Positions 12,250 to 19,978 of a DNA stretch of 20,247 nt are shown one piece after another. The notes beneath the pieces were generated by a model that worked only from the letters and a program-made list of their open reading frames with translations, was not told where the DNA came from and ran no database searches. Within the stretch, counting starts at the first letter, position 1; the number at the start of each line of letters is the position of its first letter. The position numbers were made by a program, and so were the translations under genes. The DNA lies in the IMG/VR virus record IMGVR_UViG_3300034418_003640, positions 1 to 20,247 of that record; one strand, given 5' to 3'. The DNA is from a virus.

Positions 12250-13635
12250 ATGACAAAAACACGTGACTTAGCCGACCTGGGTGGAGGTTTCATCCAGGCC
12301 GGTTCTGGTGCTGTGCAGCGCACCGTTGAATCAAAGCTGCAAGATGTGGTGAGTGTTAAAGACTTCGGAGCGGTTGGTGACGGGGTTACTGATGATACAG
12401 CAGCTTTCCAAGAAGCTATAAATGCGGGTGGTACTATTATTGTTCCAAGCCCCTCAGTAGAGTATCTGATCACCGGTCAGCTCACAATAACACAAACCGG
12501 CACTACACTTTGGGGCGAAGGGATGCCAACTATTAGGGTGGCAACCGGAGCAAGCAGCTTACTTAGAATTAGAGCTAGCTTCTTTACTTTAGAAAACTTC
12601 AGGTTCTATGCAGGTTCTCCTCTTTCGGAAGCAGCAATCCTAGTAGACACTATTAACTCAGCCCTTACTAACCTAAGAGTAGCAAACATTAGAGGAGAAA
12701 ACTTGTTCGGTTTTTATGCCGACAACGGTGGCTCCAATACTGTGGTCAATGCTGTCATTACAGACATCTATCTTAATGCACATCGCGGTTATGGGATCTA
12801 CACTCGCAAGCATTTCGCTTACTTCTATGTCGATGGGTTTGGTGTAACCCGAGTAGGCTTGTCTGGCGTCGATTACAACTATGCCGCCGCTAGAATTGAA
12901 AACGCTGAAGGTGTATTTGTACGAGATGCTTCACATGATGGGACAAATGCTACAAGCATACAGCCCGATCAACACGGTTATCACTTCATCTTGTCAAGCT
13001 TCATACAACTAGAAAATGTCATACCTGACCATGTTGGAGGACATGCTTTCTATTTCCAAAACTGTGCAAATGCTAGGGTTCTGCAGTGCTCCTGTCCTAA
13101 CAGCAATCTCTCTTCGCTAATGGCAGCTGATAGCAGCTATATTGCTGTGGACAATAGCACCTTTAACACCTACACCTCTGGTAGTGCTGGAGCTTGTGGG
13201 GTAGAAATTACTTCTTGCAATAGGGTTGTACTGGCTAATAGTACTTCTTATGTTACCAAGAACGATGGGTTCAGAGTTACCTTGTCACAGGATGTTGTTC
13301 TATCTAATTGCACAGCCTATCTCTGCGGGGGCAACGGGTTTGCCTTTAGTAGCTGTTCACAGGTCTCAGCGTCTTCTCTGATTTCTCGGTCGAACACTCT
13401 TGCAGGTCTTTATACTATTGGTTGTCAGAGAGTCTCTACAAGCTCCTGTATAATCACTGACAATACTGGTAGAGGCATCGTAGGAAATAGCGACCTTGCT
13501 CAAATACATAATGCGGCTATTATAGCATCTAATGTCGCTGGCAACTACGATATTAGTGGCATAGTGTCTTACCTGGTCAACTGTATGCTGGACTCCGGCT
13601 CTCTTGTAAATGTGACTGCACCATCTACAGGCTAA
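12250..13635 (+). CDS. Second beta-helix fibre or tailspike protein, no virion anchor
   Basis: A 461-residue protein starting MTKTRDLADLGGGFIQ, a short leader often seen on phage fibre proteins. Residues about 18-58 (GSGAVQRTVESKLQDVVSVK, then DFGAVGDGVTDDTAAFQEAI) are a near copy, at protein level, of residues about 322-366 of the preceding fibre. At DNA level the copies are clearly diverged, so this is an old shared module rather than a recent duplication. The rest is a repetitive beta-helix with many short N/S/C-containing rungs (for example the turns near SCNRVVLANS and SCSQVSASSL) and notably frequent cysteines. It lacks both the T7-type anchor and the C-terminal RTDGG cap. It therefore probably attaches to another tail protein, perhaps as a branched fibre or depolymerase, or chaperones or competes with the first fibre. 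The start is 11 bases after the previous stop, with no Shine-Dalgarno site. Confidence 0.8.
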   Translation: MTKTRDLADLGGGFIQAGSGAVQRTVESKLQDVVSVKDFGAVGDGVTDDTAAFQEAINAGGTIIVPSPSVEYLITGQLTITQTGTTLWGEGMPTIRVATGASSLLRIRASFFTLENFRFYAGSPLSEAAILVDTINSALTNLRVANIRGENLFGFYADNGGSNTVVNAVITDIYLNAHRGYGIYTRKHFAYFYVDGFGVTRVGLSGVDYNYAAARIENAEGVFVRDASHDGTNATSIQPDQHGYHFILSSFIQLENVIPDHVGGHAFYFQNCANARVLQCSCPNSNLSSLMAADSSYIAVDNSTFNTYTSGSAGACGVEITSCNRVVLANSTSYVTKNDGFRVTLSQDVVLSNCTAYLCGGNGFAFSSCSQVSASSLISRSNTLAGLYTIGCQRVSTSSCIITDNTGRGIVGNSDLAQIHNAAIIASNVAGNYDISGIVSYLVNCMLDSGSLVNVTAPSTG

Positions 13636-13719
13636 ACTACTAACACTTAAACGCCAATGACCTTCCCGGTAAATACGACTCTTGCTACTAATACTACACT
13701 TTAATTATAAGTAACTATT
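13636..13719 (+). promoter_or_regulatory. Intergenic promoter-like region before the lysis genes
   Basis: An 84-base noncoding gap, one of only three sizeable gaps here. Bases 13671-13687 match the T7 promoter core TAATACGACTCACTATA at 12 of 17 positions, including the unbroken AATACGACTC at 13672-13681. A second overlapping element at 13689-13705 (TAATACTACACTTTAAT) matches at 11 of 17, in register 18 bases downstream. A sigma70-like pair is also visible: TTGCTA (13682-13687), an 18-base spacer, and TATAAG (13706-13711). The matches could be chance in an AT-rich gap. The single-subunit RNA polymerase of this phage is outside the window, so specificity cannot be checked. Confidence 0.4.
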
Positions 13720-13917
13720 ATGTTAACTATTCTCGGCATCAAAATGTCCTATGAGGCACTCATTTTCTTTGCTCTTTTTATTGGCTCTGAAGTAGTTGCT
13801 GCTTCTAAGCTGCGTGAGAACAGCATCGCTCAACTCTTTGTACGTGTTGTAGAGGCACTAAAGCCTCACCGTACTGAAGATGACAAAATCCAACGCATTA
13901 AGGATACATTCAAATGA
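13720..13917 (+). CDS. Small single-span membrane protein, candidate holin
   Basis: A 65-residue protein with one hydrophobic segment at about residues 10-28 (SYEALIFFALFIGSEVVAAS) and a charged, basic C-terminal half (KPHRTEDDKIQRIKDTFK). Small size, one membrane span and an ATGA overlap with the endolysin gene make it the best holin candidate in the window. I recall similar short proteins in cyanophage podoviruses annotated only as hypothetical, so function is inferred from position. The alternative start at M9 (ATG 13744) would give a protein beginning MSYEALIFF, more like the relatives I remember. Neither start has a clear Shine-Dalgarno site. If 13744 is right, the leader of this gene is 24 bases longer. 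Confidence 0.65.
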   Translation: MLTILGIKMSYEALIFFALFIGSEVVAASKLRENSIAQLFVRVVEALKPHRTEDDKIQRIKDTFK

Positions 13918-14477
13918 GCATTAAACTCCTTGACGTTATTAAAAACTACAAGGGGTTACCTCATCAACAGCAAGCCATTGAGGCTCTAGAGCACCTTCTA
14001 GGGTCCTTTGGCTTATCTGATGATGCGGAGTGGGTAAAGATCTGGCGTACACCTGCTCCTGTAGCTCCTCAACAATTTGATAATACCTGGGAAGGTATTG
14101 AAGCTGCTGCTCGTGCTGCTGGAGCTAAATATCCAGAAGTAGTTGCTGCACAATGGGCACTTGAATCAGCATTTGGTACTGCTACAAGCGGTAAAAATAA
14201 CTACTTCGGTATCAAAGGTACTGGTACTGTAAAGACTACCTGGGAAGACTACGGTAACGGTCCAGTAACAATCAAGGCATCGTTTAAGGACTTCGCTACT
14301 CCGTACGACTGTGTAGATCACCTTGTCACTCAGTGGTATAAGGACTACAAAGGTTATAAAGGCGTCAATCGAGCCACCTCTCGTGAAGATTGTGCATACC
14401 TCCTAAAAGCTGAAGGTTATGCCACAGACCCAATTTACGCACAGAAGTTGATTCGATTGATGGAGCAACATGAGTAG
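13914..14477 (+). CDS. Endolysin, GH73-like N-acetylglucosaminidase
   Basis: A 187-residue peptidoglycan hydrolase. Residues about 55-187 match the FlgJ/GH73 glucosaminidase fold: VVAAQWALESAFGTATSGKN with the probable catalytic Glu at E84, followed by NYFGIKG, a region with YGNGPVTIKASFKDFATPYD, and a C-terminal AEGYATDPIYAQKLIRLM. The latter matches the conserved 'YATDPxYAxKL' end of the family. Residues 1 to about 48 form a small N-terminal domain (KNYKGLPHQQQAIEALEHLL) that I recall from cyanophage lysozymes and that could bind cell wall. No signal peptide is present, so export would need a holin. It overlaps the small membrane-protein gene by 4 bases (ATGA) and the next gene by 8. This differs from T7, whose lysozyme is an amidase (gp3.5) encoded in the middle region. 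Confidence 0.88.
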   Translation: MSIKLLDVIKNYKGLPHQQQAIEALEHLLGSFGLSDDAEWVKIWRTPAPVAPQQFDNTWEGIEAAARAAGAKYPEVVAAQWALESAFGTATSGKNNYFGIKGTGTVKTTWEDYGNGPVTIKASFKDFATPYDCVDHLVTQWYKDYKGYKGVNRATSREDCAYLLKAEGYATDPIYAQKLIRLMEQHE

Positions 14478-14868
14478 TACCACTTACAACATTGTACCTG
14501 GTAGGTACGATAGAGATCTACCTATTTCAACTAAAACTCATTTTATTAGTTCAGCTGCTTCTACTAATGCAACGTTGGTAAAATCTAGTCCTGGTACAGT
14601 TTTTAGTATTCTAGTACATAATACAGGCAGCGGTGTTGGTCATGCACACCACCTCCGTCTTTATGATAAAAATACAGCACCTGTTGTAGGTACAGATGTA
14701 CCATTTGCTATTATCCACTTACCTGCTAGTCAATCTAAAGAGATTAACTTTACCAGTGGCATTACTTTTAACACTGGTATTGCATATTCTATTACAGAAG
14801 ATGATGATCTACTAGATGCTACACCTATTGAAGCGGATTCTGTTCAACTATTTATAGGGTACATGTAA
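14470..14868 (+). CDS. Small beta-rich phage protein of unknown role
   Basis: A 132-residue protein with no membrane segment. Its pattern (FISSAASTNATLVKSSPGTV, then a LRLYDKNTAPVVGTDVPF stretch and HLPASQSKEINFTSGITF, GIAYSITEDDD) resembles short beta-sandwich proteins found near structural genes in many phages. These are usually labelled hypothetical or putative structural. It sits between endolysin and a membrane-anchored coiled-coil protein, overlapping the endolysin gene by 8 bases and the next gene by 1. It could therefore be part of the lysis set or a minor virion or decoration protein. Alternating hydrophobic and polar residues and many T/S/G residues fit a beta fold. I cannot assign a function. 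Confidence 0.7.
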   Translation: MSSTTYNIVPGRYDRDLPISTKTHFISSAASTNATLVKSSPGTVFSILVHNTGSGVGHAHHLRLYDKNTAPVVGTDVPFAIIHLPASQSKEINFTSGITFNTGIAYSITEDDDLLDATPIEADSVQLFIGYM

Positions 14869-15101
14869 TGATTGAAGCAGGTGTAGCAGCAGGTATTGCC
14901 CTTTTAACTGCCATTATCTCAGTCCATAACCGTCTTCATACAAAGATTAGCGAAGTGGATAGCCGTGTAGACAAAGTAGAACTCCGTGTAGCGGAGCACT
15001 ACGTCCAAAAGCAAGAGCTATCTACTGCTCTTCAGAAGATGGAGGATCACATGATCCGTATTGAAAACAAATTAGATCAAATCGTCCTTAGAAATGGCTA
15101 A
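14868..15101 (+). CDS. Membrane-anchored coiled-coil protein, candidate spanin or holin partner
   Basis: A 77-residue protein with an N-terminal hydrophobic segment at about residues 2-19 (IEAGVAAGIALLTAIISV), then a predicted coiled coil from about 24 to 73 (ISEVDSRVDKVELRVAEHYV onward, with regular V/L/I heptads). This layout is that of an i-spanin (Rz-like) or XhlA-like lysis accessory. T7 places its Rz gene (18.5) between terS and terL, whereas here the candidate is just before terS. No lipoprotein Rz1 partner is visible in or beside it. Start overlaps the upstream TAA by one base (TAATG) and its end overlaps the terS start by 8 bases. Function is inferred from architecture and location. 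Confidence 0.65.
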   Translation: MIEAGVAAGIALLTAIISVHNRLHTKISEVDSRVDKVELRVAEHYVQKQELSTALQKMEDHMIRIENKLDQIVLRNG

Positions 15102-15345
15102 CAACAAAGCTACTGAGGATATGTTTAACGAGTTACACAACCTCGTTACTACTGAATTCCTTAAGAGAATCAAGAGTGGTGAAGCAACTGCTCAAGAACT
15201 TAAAGCGGCTTGTGATTGGTTAGCTAAAAATGACATCAGTGGGGTTGCCTATGACGGTAACCCTCTTGATAAACTAGCTAACGTCCTCCCTAAAGTAGAC
15301 CCTGAACTCGTACAGAAGAGGCTTTATGGCAAGTCGTACCTCTAA
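15094..15345 (+). CDS. Terminase small subunit (T7 gp18-like, DNA maturase A)
   Basis: An 83-residue soluble helical protein (EDMFNELHNLVTTEFLKRIK, then a SGEATAQELKAACDWLAKND stretch) of the size of T7 gp18 (89 residues). The pattern of an N-terminal helix, 'SGEAT..EL.AA..WL..N.I', and a C-terminal PLDKLANVLPKVDPE segment is that of podoviral and other phage small terminase subunits. These recognise the packaging site and load DNA to the large subunit. The large subunit lies 2.0 kb downstream, separated by four other genes, which is more than in T7. It overlaps the previous gene by 8 bases and the next by 20. Confidence 0.8.
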   Translation: MANNKATEDMFNELHNLVTTEFLKRIKSGEATAQELKAACDWLAKNDISGVAYDGNPLDKLANVLPKVDPELVQKRLYGKSYL

Positions 15346-15571
15346 ATACTACAAAGACAACCCGGAAGCACGAAAGAAGCGTCTTAAACAGCAAGCACGC
15401 TACAATCGTCAATCACTTCAAATTGAAAAACGTGTTGAACTTAATCGTGAAAACAGAAAACGTGGCACCTATGGTAATGGTGACGGTAAAGACGTATCAC
15501 ACAAGAAAGATGGTTCAACAGTACTTGAAAAAGCCTCAAAAAATCGAGCTAGAAACCGATCTCGGAAATGA
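15326..15571 (+). CDS. Small, very basic protein conserved near cyanophage terminases
   Basis: An 81-residue, strongly basic, low-hydrophobicity protein: MASRTSKYYKDNPEARKKRL, then NRENRKRGTYGNGDGKDVSH, ending KNRARNRSRK. Lys, Arg and Asn are very frequent, and the NPEARKKRLKQQARYN stretch should be helical. I recall near relatives in many marine cyanophages, annotated as hypothetical. Nucleic-acid binding is a reasonable guess from charge and from its place inside the packaging module, but nothing shows a catalytic site. An AGAGG site 5 bases before the ATG gives a usable ribosome binding site. It overlaps terS by 20 bases and shares ATGA with the endonuclease VII-like gene that follows. Confidence 0.75.
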   Translation: MASRTSKYYKDNPEARKKRLKQQARYNRQSLQIEKRVELNRENRKRGTYGNGDGKDVSHKKDGSTVLEKASKNRARNRSRK

Positions 15572-16050
15572 CACCGCAAAGAAAACCATGCAAACAGTGT
15601 GGGGTTGAGAAACCTTTTTCACAATTCAGAACCTGCAATACTAAGCATGGATTCTATCAAACTTGTAAGGAATGCTGTAAAGCAAAGGTATCACCTGAAA
15701 CCTTAGCCTTTTACTATTGGAAAGCCGACCTAAAGAAAAAATACAAGTTAACACCAGATCAATATTACTCCATGCTGGAAGAACAGGGTGGAGGTTGCGC
15801 TATTTGTGGTATCACTAATCCTGGAGCCAAAAAATCATACTTTTGTGTGGATCATTGTCACCACACAGGAGATGTGCGCGGTCTTTTATGCTCATCTTGC
15901 AACATTGGAATAGGAAATTTAAAAGACTCTAGACTGTTACTCCAAAATGCTCTAAGGTACTTACATGGAAAACCCACAAGCGATGATGCAAAATCTCCAA
16001 GCACTTCGTTCCAGCGAAGCGAAGAAAATGTGGAGAAATTGGATACATGA
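15568..16050 (+). CDS. Endonuclease VII-like nuclease (recombination endonuclease VII family)
   Basis: A 160-residue His-Me finger nuclease. Residues about 1-37 hold a small zinc-finger-like part (C8, C11, C33, C36). The nuclease core follows: C77 and C80 (GGGCAICG), VDHCHHTGDVRGLLC with D95 and H96 at the active-site turn and H98/H99, then C108, C111 and N112 (CSSCNIGIG). C77/C80 and C108/C111 are the structural zinc ligands expected of T4 gp49-type enzymes. These cut Holliday junctions and branched DNA before packaging, although many phage copies are stand-alone homing enzymes. Everything after about residue 135 (KPTSDDAKSPSTSFQRSEEN to the end) is polar and is encoded inside the start of the next gene. 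It is probably an overprinted tail without its own function. Confidence 0.85.
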   Translation: MTPQRKPCKQCGVEKPFSQFRTCNTKHGFYQTCKECCKAKVSPETLAFYYWKADLKKKYKLTPDQYYSMLEEQGGGCAICGITNPGAKKSYFCVDHCHHTGDVRGLLCSSCNIGIGNLKDSRLLLQNALRYLHGKPTSDDAKSPSTSFQRSEENVEKLDT

Positions 16051-17378: not shown

Positions 17379-19109
17379 ATGAACGTTTTAGACGCCCTTA
17401 AAGACGATTTTAAGATCTTTCTTCAAGCTCTATGGCAGCAGCTAGATCTACCCTCTCCTACACGAGCACAATACGCTATTGCTGACTACCTTCAACACGG
17501 TCCTAAACGACTACAGATCCAAGCATTCCGAGGAGTCGGTAAGAGCTGGATTACTGGTGCTTTCGTTCTATGGACACTCTTCAATAACCCAGAAAAGAAG
17601 ATCATGATCATCTCTGCCTCTAAAGAACGGGCAGACAACATGAGTATCTTCCTACAGAAACTAATTATTGAGACACCGTGGCTATCACATTTGAGACCAA
17701 AGAGTGATGATGCCCGATGGTCTCGTATTAGCTTTGACGTTGCCTGTAGCCCTCACCAAGCACCTTCCGTTAAGTCAGTTGGAATCACAGGTCAGTTGAC
17801 TGGTAGCCGTGCAGACCTGATGATTCTAGACGATATTGAGGTACCTGGTAACTCTATGACAGAGATGATGCGAGAGAAACTCCTTCAACTCTGTACTGAA
17901 GCTGAGTCTATCCTTACACCAAAGAAAGACTCACGTATTATGTACCTGGGTACACCTCAGACAACCTTTACTATTTACCGTAAACTAGCTGAACGTAACT
18001 ATAAACCTTTTGTCTGGCCAGCACGTTACCCTCGTAAACTATCTAACTACGAAGGTCTACTTGCTCCACAAATACAAGAAGACATTGAAGCTGGTGCTGA
18101 ATCATGGGATGTAACAGACCCTGATCGTTTCTCTAACGATGATCTAGTAGAACGTGAAGCATCAATGGGTCGTAGCAACTTCATGCTACAGTTCATGCTA
18201 GACACTAGCCTTAGTGATGCTGAGAAGTTCCCACTTAAGATGGCAGACCTTATCGTTACAGCAGTTAACCCTAAGGAATGTCCTGATGCTGTAGTCTGGT
18301 GTTCAGATCCATCTAATGTTATTAAAGACCTACCAACAGTTGGTCTACCTGGTGATTACTTCTACTCACCAATGGTCATGCAAGGTGACTGGTTACCTTA
18401 CACAGAAACAATCTGCTCAGTAGACCCATCAGGTAGAGGTACAGACGAAACAGCAGCTTGCTTCCTTAGTCAACGTAATGGTTTTATCTACCTTCACGAA
18501 GTACGTGCTTACCAAGACGGTTATAGCGACAACACTCTCTTAGACATCCTTAGAGGTTGTAAAAAATACGGTGTTACTAAACTCCTCATCGAAACTAACT
18601 TTGGTGATGGTATTGTCGGTGAACTTTTTCGTAAACACCTCCAACAAACGAAACAAGCTATAGACATTGAAGAGGTGCGTGCTAATGTCCGAAAAGAAGA
18701 CCGTATTATTGATACCCTTGAGCCTGTTCTTAATCAACATAAGCTTATTGTTAATAGGTCTGTGGTGGAATGGGACTTCAACTCGAATAAGGAAGCCGCA
18801 CCCGAAACTAGACTCCTTTATATGCTGTTCTATCAGATGTCGAGGATGTGTCGTGAGAAAGGTGCCGTAAGACATGATGACAGATTAGACTCACTAGCTC
18901 AAGGTGTTAAATACTTCACAGATGCACTAGCTATTAGTGCCTATGAAGCAATGAAGACACGTAAACAAGAAGACTGGAATGATCTAATGGAAGAATGGCT
19001 TGATGACCCTCAAGCAGCTGCTTCTCATATGGCATTTGGCTTTAATTTAGACCAAAGAAAACAAGCTAGAATGTTAGATGGTAAAAAGTCAGTTCCCACC
19101 TGGGTTTAA
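17379..19109 (+). CDS. Terminase large subunit (T7 gp19-like, DNA maturase B)
   Basis: A 576-residue ATP-driven DNA packaging motor with nuclease. ATPase part: Walker A at 49-56 (AFRGVGKS, K55), Walker B at 147-152 (LMILDD) with the following I-E, and coupling-type YLGTPQTT at about 189-196. Nuclease part, RNase H-like: first acid D349 (CSVDPSGRGTDET), second E405 (LLIETNFGDG), third in the VRHDDRLDSLAQG stretch (D501 or D504). Length is close to T7 gp19 (586 residues). It acts at the portal, cutting concatemeric DNA and pumping it into procapsids with the small subunit encoded at 15094-15345. No Shine-Dalgarno site precedes ATG 17379. Transcription probably ends at the terminator starting 51 bases after its stop. 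Confidence 0.95.
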   Translation: MNVLDALKDDFKIFLQALWQQLDLPSPTRAQYAIADYLQHGPKRLQIQAFRGVGKSWITGAFVLWTLFNNPEKKIMIISASKERADNMSIFLQKLIIETPWLSHLRPKSDDARWSRISFDVACSPHQAPSVKSVGITGQLTGSRADLMILDDIEVPGNSMTEMMREKLLQLCTEAESILTPKKDSRIMYLGTPQTTFTIYRKLAERNYKPFVWPARYPRKLSNYEGLLAPQIQEDIEAGAESWDVTDPDRFSNDDLVEREASMGRSNFMLQFMLDTSLSDAEKFPLKMADLIVTAVNPKECPDAVVWCSDPSNVIKDLPTVGLPGDYFYSPMVMQGDWLPYTETICSVDPSGRGTDETAACFLSQRNGFIYLHEVRAYQDGYSDNTLLDILRGCKKYGVTKLLIETNFGDGIVGELFRKHLQQTKQAIDIEEVRANVRKEDRIIDTLEPVLNQHKLIVNRSVVEWDFNSNKEAAPETRLLYMLFYQMSRMCREKGAVRHDDRLDSLAQGVKYFTDALAISAYEAMKTRKQEDWNDLMEEWLDDPQAAASHMAFGFNLDQRKQARMLDGKKSVPTWV

Positions 19110-19128
19110 GACCGATAACACCCGTATA

Positions 19129-19159
19129 CAGGAGAAGGGAAGGGTGGACCCGACTCCTG
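19129..19159 (+). other. Stem-loop directly before the terminator
   Basis: CAGGAG (19129-19134) is complementary to CTCCTG (19154-19159). Inside, GGG (19142-19144) can pair with CCC (19149-19151) around a short GGA-containing loop. It lies 20 bases after the terL stop and abuts the terminator stem with no gap. It may protect or process the 3' end of late mRNA, or belong to a larger fold. Its function is unknown. Confidence 0.5.
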
Positions 19160-19203
19160 GAGGAAAGGACTCGTCTCTAACGAGACAATCCTTTCCTTTT
19201 TTT
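19160..19203 (+). terminator. Rho-independent terminator after terL
   Basis: GGAAAGGA (19162-19169) pairs perfectly with TCCTTTCC (19189-19196). An inner stem (CTCGT with ACGAG, or GTCTC with GAGAC) caps the hairpin, and seven T residues (19197-19203) follow. This is a textbook intrinsic terminator on the + strand, placed to end the late virion and packaging transcript. Pairing could extend one base further through A19161 and T19197. Confidence 0.9.
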
Positions 19204-19205
19204 CT

Positions 19206-19265
19206 TTAATGAACAGTGAGGGAACAAAGGTTCCAAAGACAAACATCTCCCTCTTAGTTCATTAA
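19206..19265. repeat. Long interrupted inverted repeat upstream of thyX
   Basis: TTAATGAAC (19206-19214) is the exact inverse of GTTCATTAA (19257-19265). Inside it, GAGGGA (19218-19223) is the exact inverse of TCCCTC (19248-19253), leaving a 3 by 3 internal loop and a 24-base apical loop. A competing hairpin, GGAAC (19221-19225) with GTTCC (19230-19234), shares bases with the inner stem, so the two folds exclude each other. It could act as an RNA element, a protein-binding dyad, or a genome-end feature. It ends 14 bases before the first thyX ATG. Confidence 0.65.
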
Positions 19266-19279
19266 TCTACTCTACTACT

Positions 19280-19978
19280 ATGAATCTAGTGAGTACTGAT
19301 TCTCTCCATCCTTCTGAATCCCGTCACTACTTATACTACTGTATGCATACCGCCACCCTCGTACACATCACTCCTGATGCTGAAGATCTAATTGCTTACA
19401 TGGCTAGGGTATCTAATCCAGCTAATCAACATAACACTGAGACCAGTGCTAAGCTGATTAAATACCTCATTAACCATAACCATTGGTCACCCTTTGAAAT
19501 GGTGAACATGTGTGTTTCTATTGAGACAACTCGTAGTATAGCAGCACAGATCCTTAGGCATCGTAGTTTTAGCTTTCAAGAGTTTAGTCAACGGTATGCT
19601 AAGGTAGAGAAGCAAGCATCTATTCCTGAGCTACGTAGACAAGATCAGAAGAATAGACAGAACAGTATTGATGATCTAGATGAGGTGTTGAAGAAACACT
19701 TTCAATTCCGTATAGGGTCACTGTATTCTGATTGTTATGGACTGTATAAAGAACTGGTAGCAGCCGGTGTAGCTAAGGAGTGTGCAAGAGAAGTGCTTCC
19801 AATGGCAGCACCAACTAAGTTGTACATGAATGGTACGATTAGGTCGTGGTTGCACTATTGTGACCTGCGAACTAGTAATGGTACGCAAAAAGAACATGCA
19901 CAGATAGCAGCACGTATTCAAGACATCTTGTATCAGTTTCTTCCTAATGTTTGTGAAGCAATGTGGAATTATGATTGA
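19280..19978 (+). CDS. thyX: Flavin-dependent thymidylate synthase
   Basis: ThyX makes dTMP from dUMP using methylene-tetrahydrofolate, FAD and NADPH, supplying thymidine for phage DNA synthesis. The ThyX signature RHRx7S is intact: RHRSFSFQEFSQRY, R93-H94-R95 to S103. Flanking family features are AYMARVSNPANQ, HWSPFEMVNM (about 69-76; many cellular enzymes have FEH where this has FEM), ECAREVLPMAAPTK and LRTSNGTQKEHAQIA. The 232-residue frame starts at ATG 19280, but most family members begin only a few residues before the equivalent of LVHITPDAED. M22 (ATG 19343) is therefore a strong alternative start, and the first 21 residues may be leader. Neither ATG has a Shine-Dalgarno site. The gene follows a terminator, so it needs its own promoter or readthrough. 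It overlaps the next small gene by 8 bases. Confidence 0.93.
   Translation: MNLVSTDSLHPSESRHYLYYCMHTATLVHITPDAEDLIAYMARVSNPANQHNTETSAKLIKYLINHNHWSPFEMVNMCVSIETTRSIAAQILRHRSFSFQEFSQRYAKVEKQASIPELRRQDQKNRQNSIDDLDEVLKKHFQFRIGSLYSDCYGLYKELVAAGVAKECAREVLPMAAPTKLYMNGTIRSWLHYCDLRTSNGTQKEHAQIAARIQDILYQFLPNVCEAMWNYD

Follow-up and report, generated by a model that had tools for sequence, protein, structure and literature searches.

A predicted phage-polymerase promoter and a conserved RNA fold behind the terminase gene of T7-like cyanophages

What is a noncoding stretch that folds into three consecutive hairpins doing between a terminase gene and a thymidylate synthase gene? The window, i.e., the whole stretch of DNA analysed here, is a 20,247-base IMG/VR virus fragment from the genome of a T7-like cyanophage. 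Among named phages, Synechococcus phage S-CBP4 (Poseidonvirus) is closest to it, with 91% identity across terL–thyX, and the fragment ends about 1 kb past the spacer element, before any terminal repeat. The features that matter for the interpretation of this locus are the following:

17379–19109, + strand: terL, the gene of the T7 gp19-like terminase large subunit (Pfam Terminase-T7_RNaseH-like, E 1e-36), directly 5′ of the spacer
19113–19127, + strand: predicted promoter of a phage single-subunit RNA polymerase, positions −15 to −1 in Syn5 numbering, with the core CACCCGTA at 19119–19126 (core identity, 19-mer scan, promoter-pair test)
19128, + strand: predicted transcription start (+1), from Syn5 numbering
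19129–19159, + strand: hairpin 1, a covarying stem with the conserved loop AAGGGTGGA at 19140–19148 (z −2.9, 2 of 200 shuffles as good; covariation; covariance-model hits)
19160–19203, + strand: hairpin 2 (19160–19198) with a seven-T tract (19197–19203), resembling an intrinsic terminator (z −4.2, 0 of 200 shuffles as good; kept in most relatives, T tract often short)
19206–19265, + strand: hairpin 3, a long inverted repeat TTAATGAAC...GTTCATTAA with an inner stem and without a T tract (z −4.0, 1 of 200 shuffles as good; inverted repeats in relatives)
19343–19978, + strand: thyX, the gene of a flavin-dependent thymidylate synthase, start revised (Pfam Thy1, E 2.6e-47; N-terminal alignment)

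The three stem-loops that a sequence-only reading had placed at 19129–19159, 19160–19203 and 19206–19265 are indeed present. As a unit, the spacer folds at −54.5 kcal/mol, against −40.2 ± 3.8 kcal/mol for dinucleotide shuffles (z −3.8; none of 200 as good), and each hairpin taken alone also beats its own shuffles, which was the comparison proposed for judging the two outer ones. The first 18 bases, on the other hand, are more than mere spacer, since a phage promoter is predicted there. The noncoding stretch is also longer than first noted. Translation of thyX probably begins at ATG 19343 rather than at ATG 19280: the latter, which opens the long thyX reading frame, is not conserved in the ThyX alignment, and the 21 codons ahead of ATG 19343 are not matched in the aligned ThyX proteins, with the exception of an unrelated extension in P60. 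With this start, the noncoding stretch spans 19110–19342. A search for tRNA and tmRNA genes found none, and a sigma-70 promoter scan around the spacer gave matches no more than expected by chance.

The core CACCCGTA has no other exact match in the window and is identical to the core of the Syn5 RNA polymerase (RNAP) promoter, ATTGGGCACCCGTAA (PMC3950665); the upstream half of the window promoter is unlike that of Syn5. Syn5 RNAP has two promoters only (PMC3950665). In the Syn5 genome we found exact copies of ATTGGGCACCCGTAA at two sites, one within the RNAP gene and the other 5 bases past the terL stop, and the window copy sits at the post-terL site, equivalent to the second promoter of Syn5. 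According to Syn5 numbering, for which positions −8 and −6 were taken from PMC6395800, +1 would fall at 19128, which puts the first base of the RNA directly 5′ of hairpin 1.

A post-terL motif that serves the phage's own polymerase as a promoter should resemble the copy in the cognate RNAP gene even where phages differ from each other. We therefore compared, in 29 phage genomes, the post-terL spacer with the homologous RNAP-gene segment and scored their best match over 15 bases. The mean was 14.4 of 15 with a phage's own RNAP gene and 11.2 of 15 with those of other phages, and the largest mean among 20,000 permutations was 12.4. The motif is strongly variable between the 29 phages, yet it is matched within each genome, the pair being identical at both sites in S-CBP4 (GTAACCACGGGTGTATACAGG), P60 (AATTGGTGACAGTAAGCAGGG) and SS120-1 (TCATTACAGGGATGTAAACAG). 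Four genomes did not rank their own pair first, having either a CACCCGT core common to other phages or a weak copy. The window itself holds no RNAP gene, and the two-copy layout of its own phage is read from contigs sharing the 19-mer GATAACACCCGTATACAGG. An exact scan of all IMG/VR contigs found this 19-mer in six of them, behind terL in three and within the RNAP gene in the other three, where it occurs in the frame MVRRGDNTRIQG; metagenome 3300034374 contributed one contig of each kind. Full-length scans of five genomes revealed no third promoter copy that came close to these two in quality.

Cyanopodovirus RNAP genes contain their own promoter within the coding sequence, at approximately nt 803–860 and near codons 270–285, and both this motif and the residues it encodes differ between phages, changing together with the post-terL copy. 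In the S-CBP3 record (KC310803.1), the RNA polymerase gene sequence is present at about 13564–15901 but unannotated.

Behind the promoter, hairpin 1 is conserved at the RNA level. Three scans yielded 253 terL loci with 206 distinct spacers, and the hairpin 1 loop motif was found post-terL in 192 of the latter: as GGGTGGA in 144 spacers (clade B, the group of the window) and as GTGGTG in 48 (clade A, the group of Syn5). The loop is nearly fixed, i.e., AAGGGTGGA in clade B and GTGGTG in clade A. The stem, on the other hand, varies with compensation. In clade B, which presents 103 distinct stems, 906 of 1133 stem cells are paired, compared with 664 ± 13 (maximum 705) when 3′ arms are swapped among phages, a null that ignores relatedness, the stem registers having been chosen sequence by sequence; slid registers leave 53–56% of cells paired. 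Relatedness was partly controlled for by disjoint nearest-neighbour contrasts, which gave nine compensatory double changes against 0–4 in slid controls. A smaller aligned clade B set agrees (369 of 454 cells paired versus 294 ± 6, and as many as five standard pair types found at a single position), as does clade A (279 of 297 versus 189 ± 9), where in most cases the hairpin is followed by a near-fixed linker, GTGTGGATATGCGGT or GTGTGGAAACAGCGGTCAAA. The compensatory changes that the sequence-only reading had proposed to look for in relatives are, hence, present in hairpin 1 of both clades.

Searched with the clade B covariance model of hairpin 1, each clade B genome has a single significant site, which is always post-terL, and the clade A and outgroup genomes have none. 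Likewise, the nine-base loop AAGGGTGGA occurs exactly once in nine of ten clade B genomes, the tenth having a one-base variant. Hairpin 1 is missing from about ten clade B spacers in which promoter and hairpin 2 are present; the sub-clade without hairpin 1 and its loop retains the promoter position and a hairpin 2. No Rfam family matched the window at the gathering threshold, and relaxed searches gave only far sub-threshold matches on the opposite strand, none of them credible.

A conserved unpaired loop suggests that the RNA is bound by something, and we would suppose this partner to be most likely a protein, of the phage or of the host. Pairing with a phage RNA was considered and set aside: the loop complement TCCACCCT is absent from nine of the ten clade B genomes and falls at unrelated places in the tenth, so that no conserved phage RNA partner was found for the clade B loop. 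A partial complement match, CCACCCT, is located at 19353 of the window, near the thyX start.

Hairpin 2 is kept in nearly all relatives, with a variable T tract. The window has seven T in a row versus three or fewer in most of the 190 spacers, so that conservation of the T run was not observed, and SS120-1, P-SSP10 and S-CBP2 have no T tract at all. In the window, the GC-rich hairpin followed by seven T (19160–19203) is what is expected of an intrinsic terminator; a terminator scan did not report it, presumably because hairpin 2 has an internal loop disallowed by the scan rule. It differs from an ordinary intrinsic terminator in having a promoter about 75 bases upstream, as well as in the poor T tract of most relatives. 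Furthermore, the T7 terminator does not halt Syn5 RNAP in vitro (PMC3950665), and hairpin 2 may therefore not stop the phage polymerase. Hairpin 3 is less uniform: similar inverted repeats with changed yet matching arms (AATGAAC, AATGTCC, AATATCC, AATGTTC and others) occur in 61 of 142 clade B spacers versus 2.5% of shuffles. RNA processing sites are possible within the element, and hairpin 3 above all is a candidate for one.

The identity of the predicted promoter and its pairing with the RNAP-gene copy, together with a conserved, covarying RNA fold, its fixed loop and its position, can be read from the sequences themselves, and jointly we consider promoter, fold and loop to be very well supported. 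We hypothesize, with a lesser degree of confidence that still favors it over the alternatives below, that the spacer serves a T7-like cyanophage as a transcription module at the right end, yielding a structured RNA of about 76 nt with some read-through. The phage's own RNA polymerase would bind 19113–19127 and start at 19128; the first RNA made would fold at once into hairpin 1, burying the 5′ end and displaying the conserved purine-rich loop; hairpin 2 would fold next, with seven U behind it. Since hairpin 2 is followed by these seven U in the window phage, a sizeable fraction of transcripts should terminate at this point, which we judge somewhat probable, and the product would be a noncoding RNA from 19128 to about 19203. 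The remaining transcripts may read through into thyX and toward the concatemer junction, as T7 phiOR transcripts do. The idea of a structured or small RNA, raised when the spacer was first described, thus gains support from the fold z-scores and from covariation. A stable 3′ UTR, proposed alongside it, puts the emphasis in the wrong place, because the element lies behind a phage promoter and begins at the predicted +1.

The main rival to a discrete RNA is a structured 5′ leader, and it owes this place to the passage of Syn5 RNAP through the T7 terminator and to the weak T tracts of many relatives. According to this explanation, the promoter makes the right-end mRNA, from thyX or talC onward; hairpin 1 protects the 5′ end, read-through is tuned or the transcript processed at hairpins 2 and 3, and no stable short RNA accumulates. 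Hairpin 1 starts at +1/+2, which is ideal for protecting a 5′ end, and hairpin 3 is located 3′ of the terminator, as would suit a longer transcript. However, a fixed loop sequence is unnecessary for pure 5′ protection, and hairpin 1 and its loop stay constant while the downstream gene changes. Moreover, the RNAP-gene promoter, which would be the expected source of long late mRNA, has no such hairpin in most phages. We regard a pure leader as rather unlikely, though it is the alternative to be taken most seriously.

The position of the element bears on its role as well. The downstream gene may be thyX, talC (P-SSP7) or another ORF (SS120-1, P-SSP10), and the element keeps its place; the gene context of cases other than thyX is given in PMC4646655. 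It follows that the element belongs to the right-end promoter and not to thyX. Cis-regulation of thyX is disfavored on the same ground, as the element is retained ahead of talC or another ORF. Exact end repeats were confirmed in P-SSP7 (206 bp; see also PMC3350473), Syn5 (237 bp), S-TIP37 (150 bp) and S-SBP1 (180 bp), and they start about 0.8–1.2 kb downstream of the element. The suggestion that the spacer marks the border of a terminal repeat can, therefore, be excluded. In all four of these phages, and also in T7, a promoter lies between terL and the right terminal repeat. The annotated end repeat of S-B28 (1–127 and 45298–45424) overlaps the 5′ part of terL, unlike in other cyanophages, and is possibly an assembly artefact.

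This location invites a second alternative, by analogy with known systems: the RNA, or transcription through the module, may help to package DNA or to cut concatemers, much like phi29 pRNA or the transcription that T7 phiOR directs toward the concatemer junction. The element lies directly behind terL, the right terminal repeat being no more than about 1.2 kb away in every cyanophage whose ends are mapped, and this is the same location as that of T7 phiOR, a phage-polymerase promoter at 39229, between genes 19 and 19.5, which is its positional analogue. Nevertheless, no hairpin pair or fixed loop is found right behind T7 phiOR, and we know of no packaging RNA in T7-like phages. The pRNA of phi29 is similar in that it is short and structured and is encoded by a phage close to a genome end; it is transcribed by the host polymerase, and no sequence or structural link to it was found (no Rfam match). 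We consider a packaging role improbable.

Less probable still is an element that acts as DNA (an origin, a cruciform or a protein site), the transcript being irrelevant. Inverted repeats beside a promoter near a genome end can function as DNA; however, palindromic DNA sites retain their arms, whereas here the arms vary freely with compensation and the loop is fixed, which is the pattern of an RNA, and the genomes contain no further copy of AAGGGTGGA. Finally, hairpin 2 with its seven T is a textbook intrinsic terminator and could be the plain end of a late operon, stopping transcription that arrives through terL, with hairpins 1 and 3 incidental, but the promoter-pair test, the covariation and fixed loop of hairpin 1, and the conserved order of promoter ahead of hairpins leave this as the least credible of the explanations.

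The right-end promoter is already known in Syn5, and the window promoter resembles it in its identical core, its place directly behind terL and its pairing with an RNAP-gene copy. The difference is that the Syn5 study treats the site as a promoter only, the word “hairpin” being absent from that paper (PMC3950665), in which T7 is credited with about 15 promoters. Conserved structured RNAs do occur in cyanophages, namely manA, wcaG and PhotoRC-II (PMC2864571), but the first two belong to T4-like cyanophages, the third goes with psbA, and the element described here has no Rfam match. We found no description of the spacer RNA fold in Rfam or in the literature searched, in which coverage of key papers was incomplete, and within that coverage the conserved folded RNA seems previously undescribed.

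Marine T7-like phages infect the most abundant photosynthetic cells of the sea. Of the two own-polymerase promoters in these phages, one would start straight into a conserved RNA fold beside the terminase gene. A discrete RNA, if one is made, would, as far as our search went, be the first conserved small RNA described for this group of phages. Going one step further, we tentatively advance a view that we hold with less than even confidence: these may be a new family of small RNAs made by the phage polymerase in both main marine cyanopodovirus clades, with a fixed loop that binds a factor of either the phage or the host (polymerase, terminase or a host regulator) and has a trans-acting role in late infection. 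The cultured models Syn5, P-SSP7 and S-TIP37 allow direct testing. The self-matching promoter pairs also constitute a natural series of RNA polymerase/promoter specificities, which is useful for in vitro transcription.

Outside the cyanophages, three outgroups (roseophage CRP-118, uncultured S45-C18 and Desulfovibrio phage ProddE) gave no covariance-model match and no core common with the RNAP gene. ProddE has an exact repeat, TAGGTTCCACCTATCGGA, just past its RNAP gene (8633) and about 190 bases past terL, which suggests something like the two-promoter layout in a distant T7-like phage.
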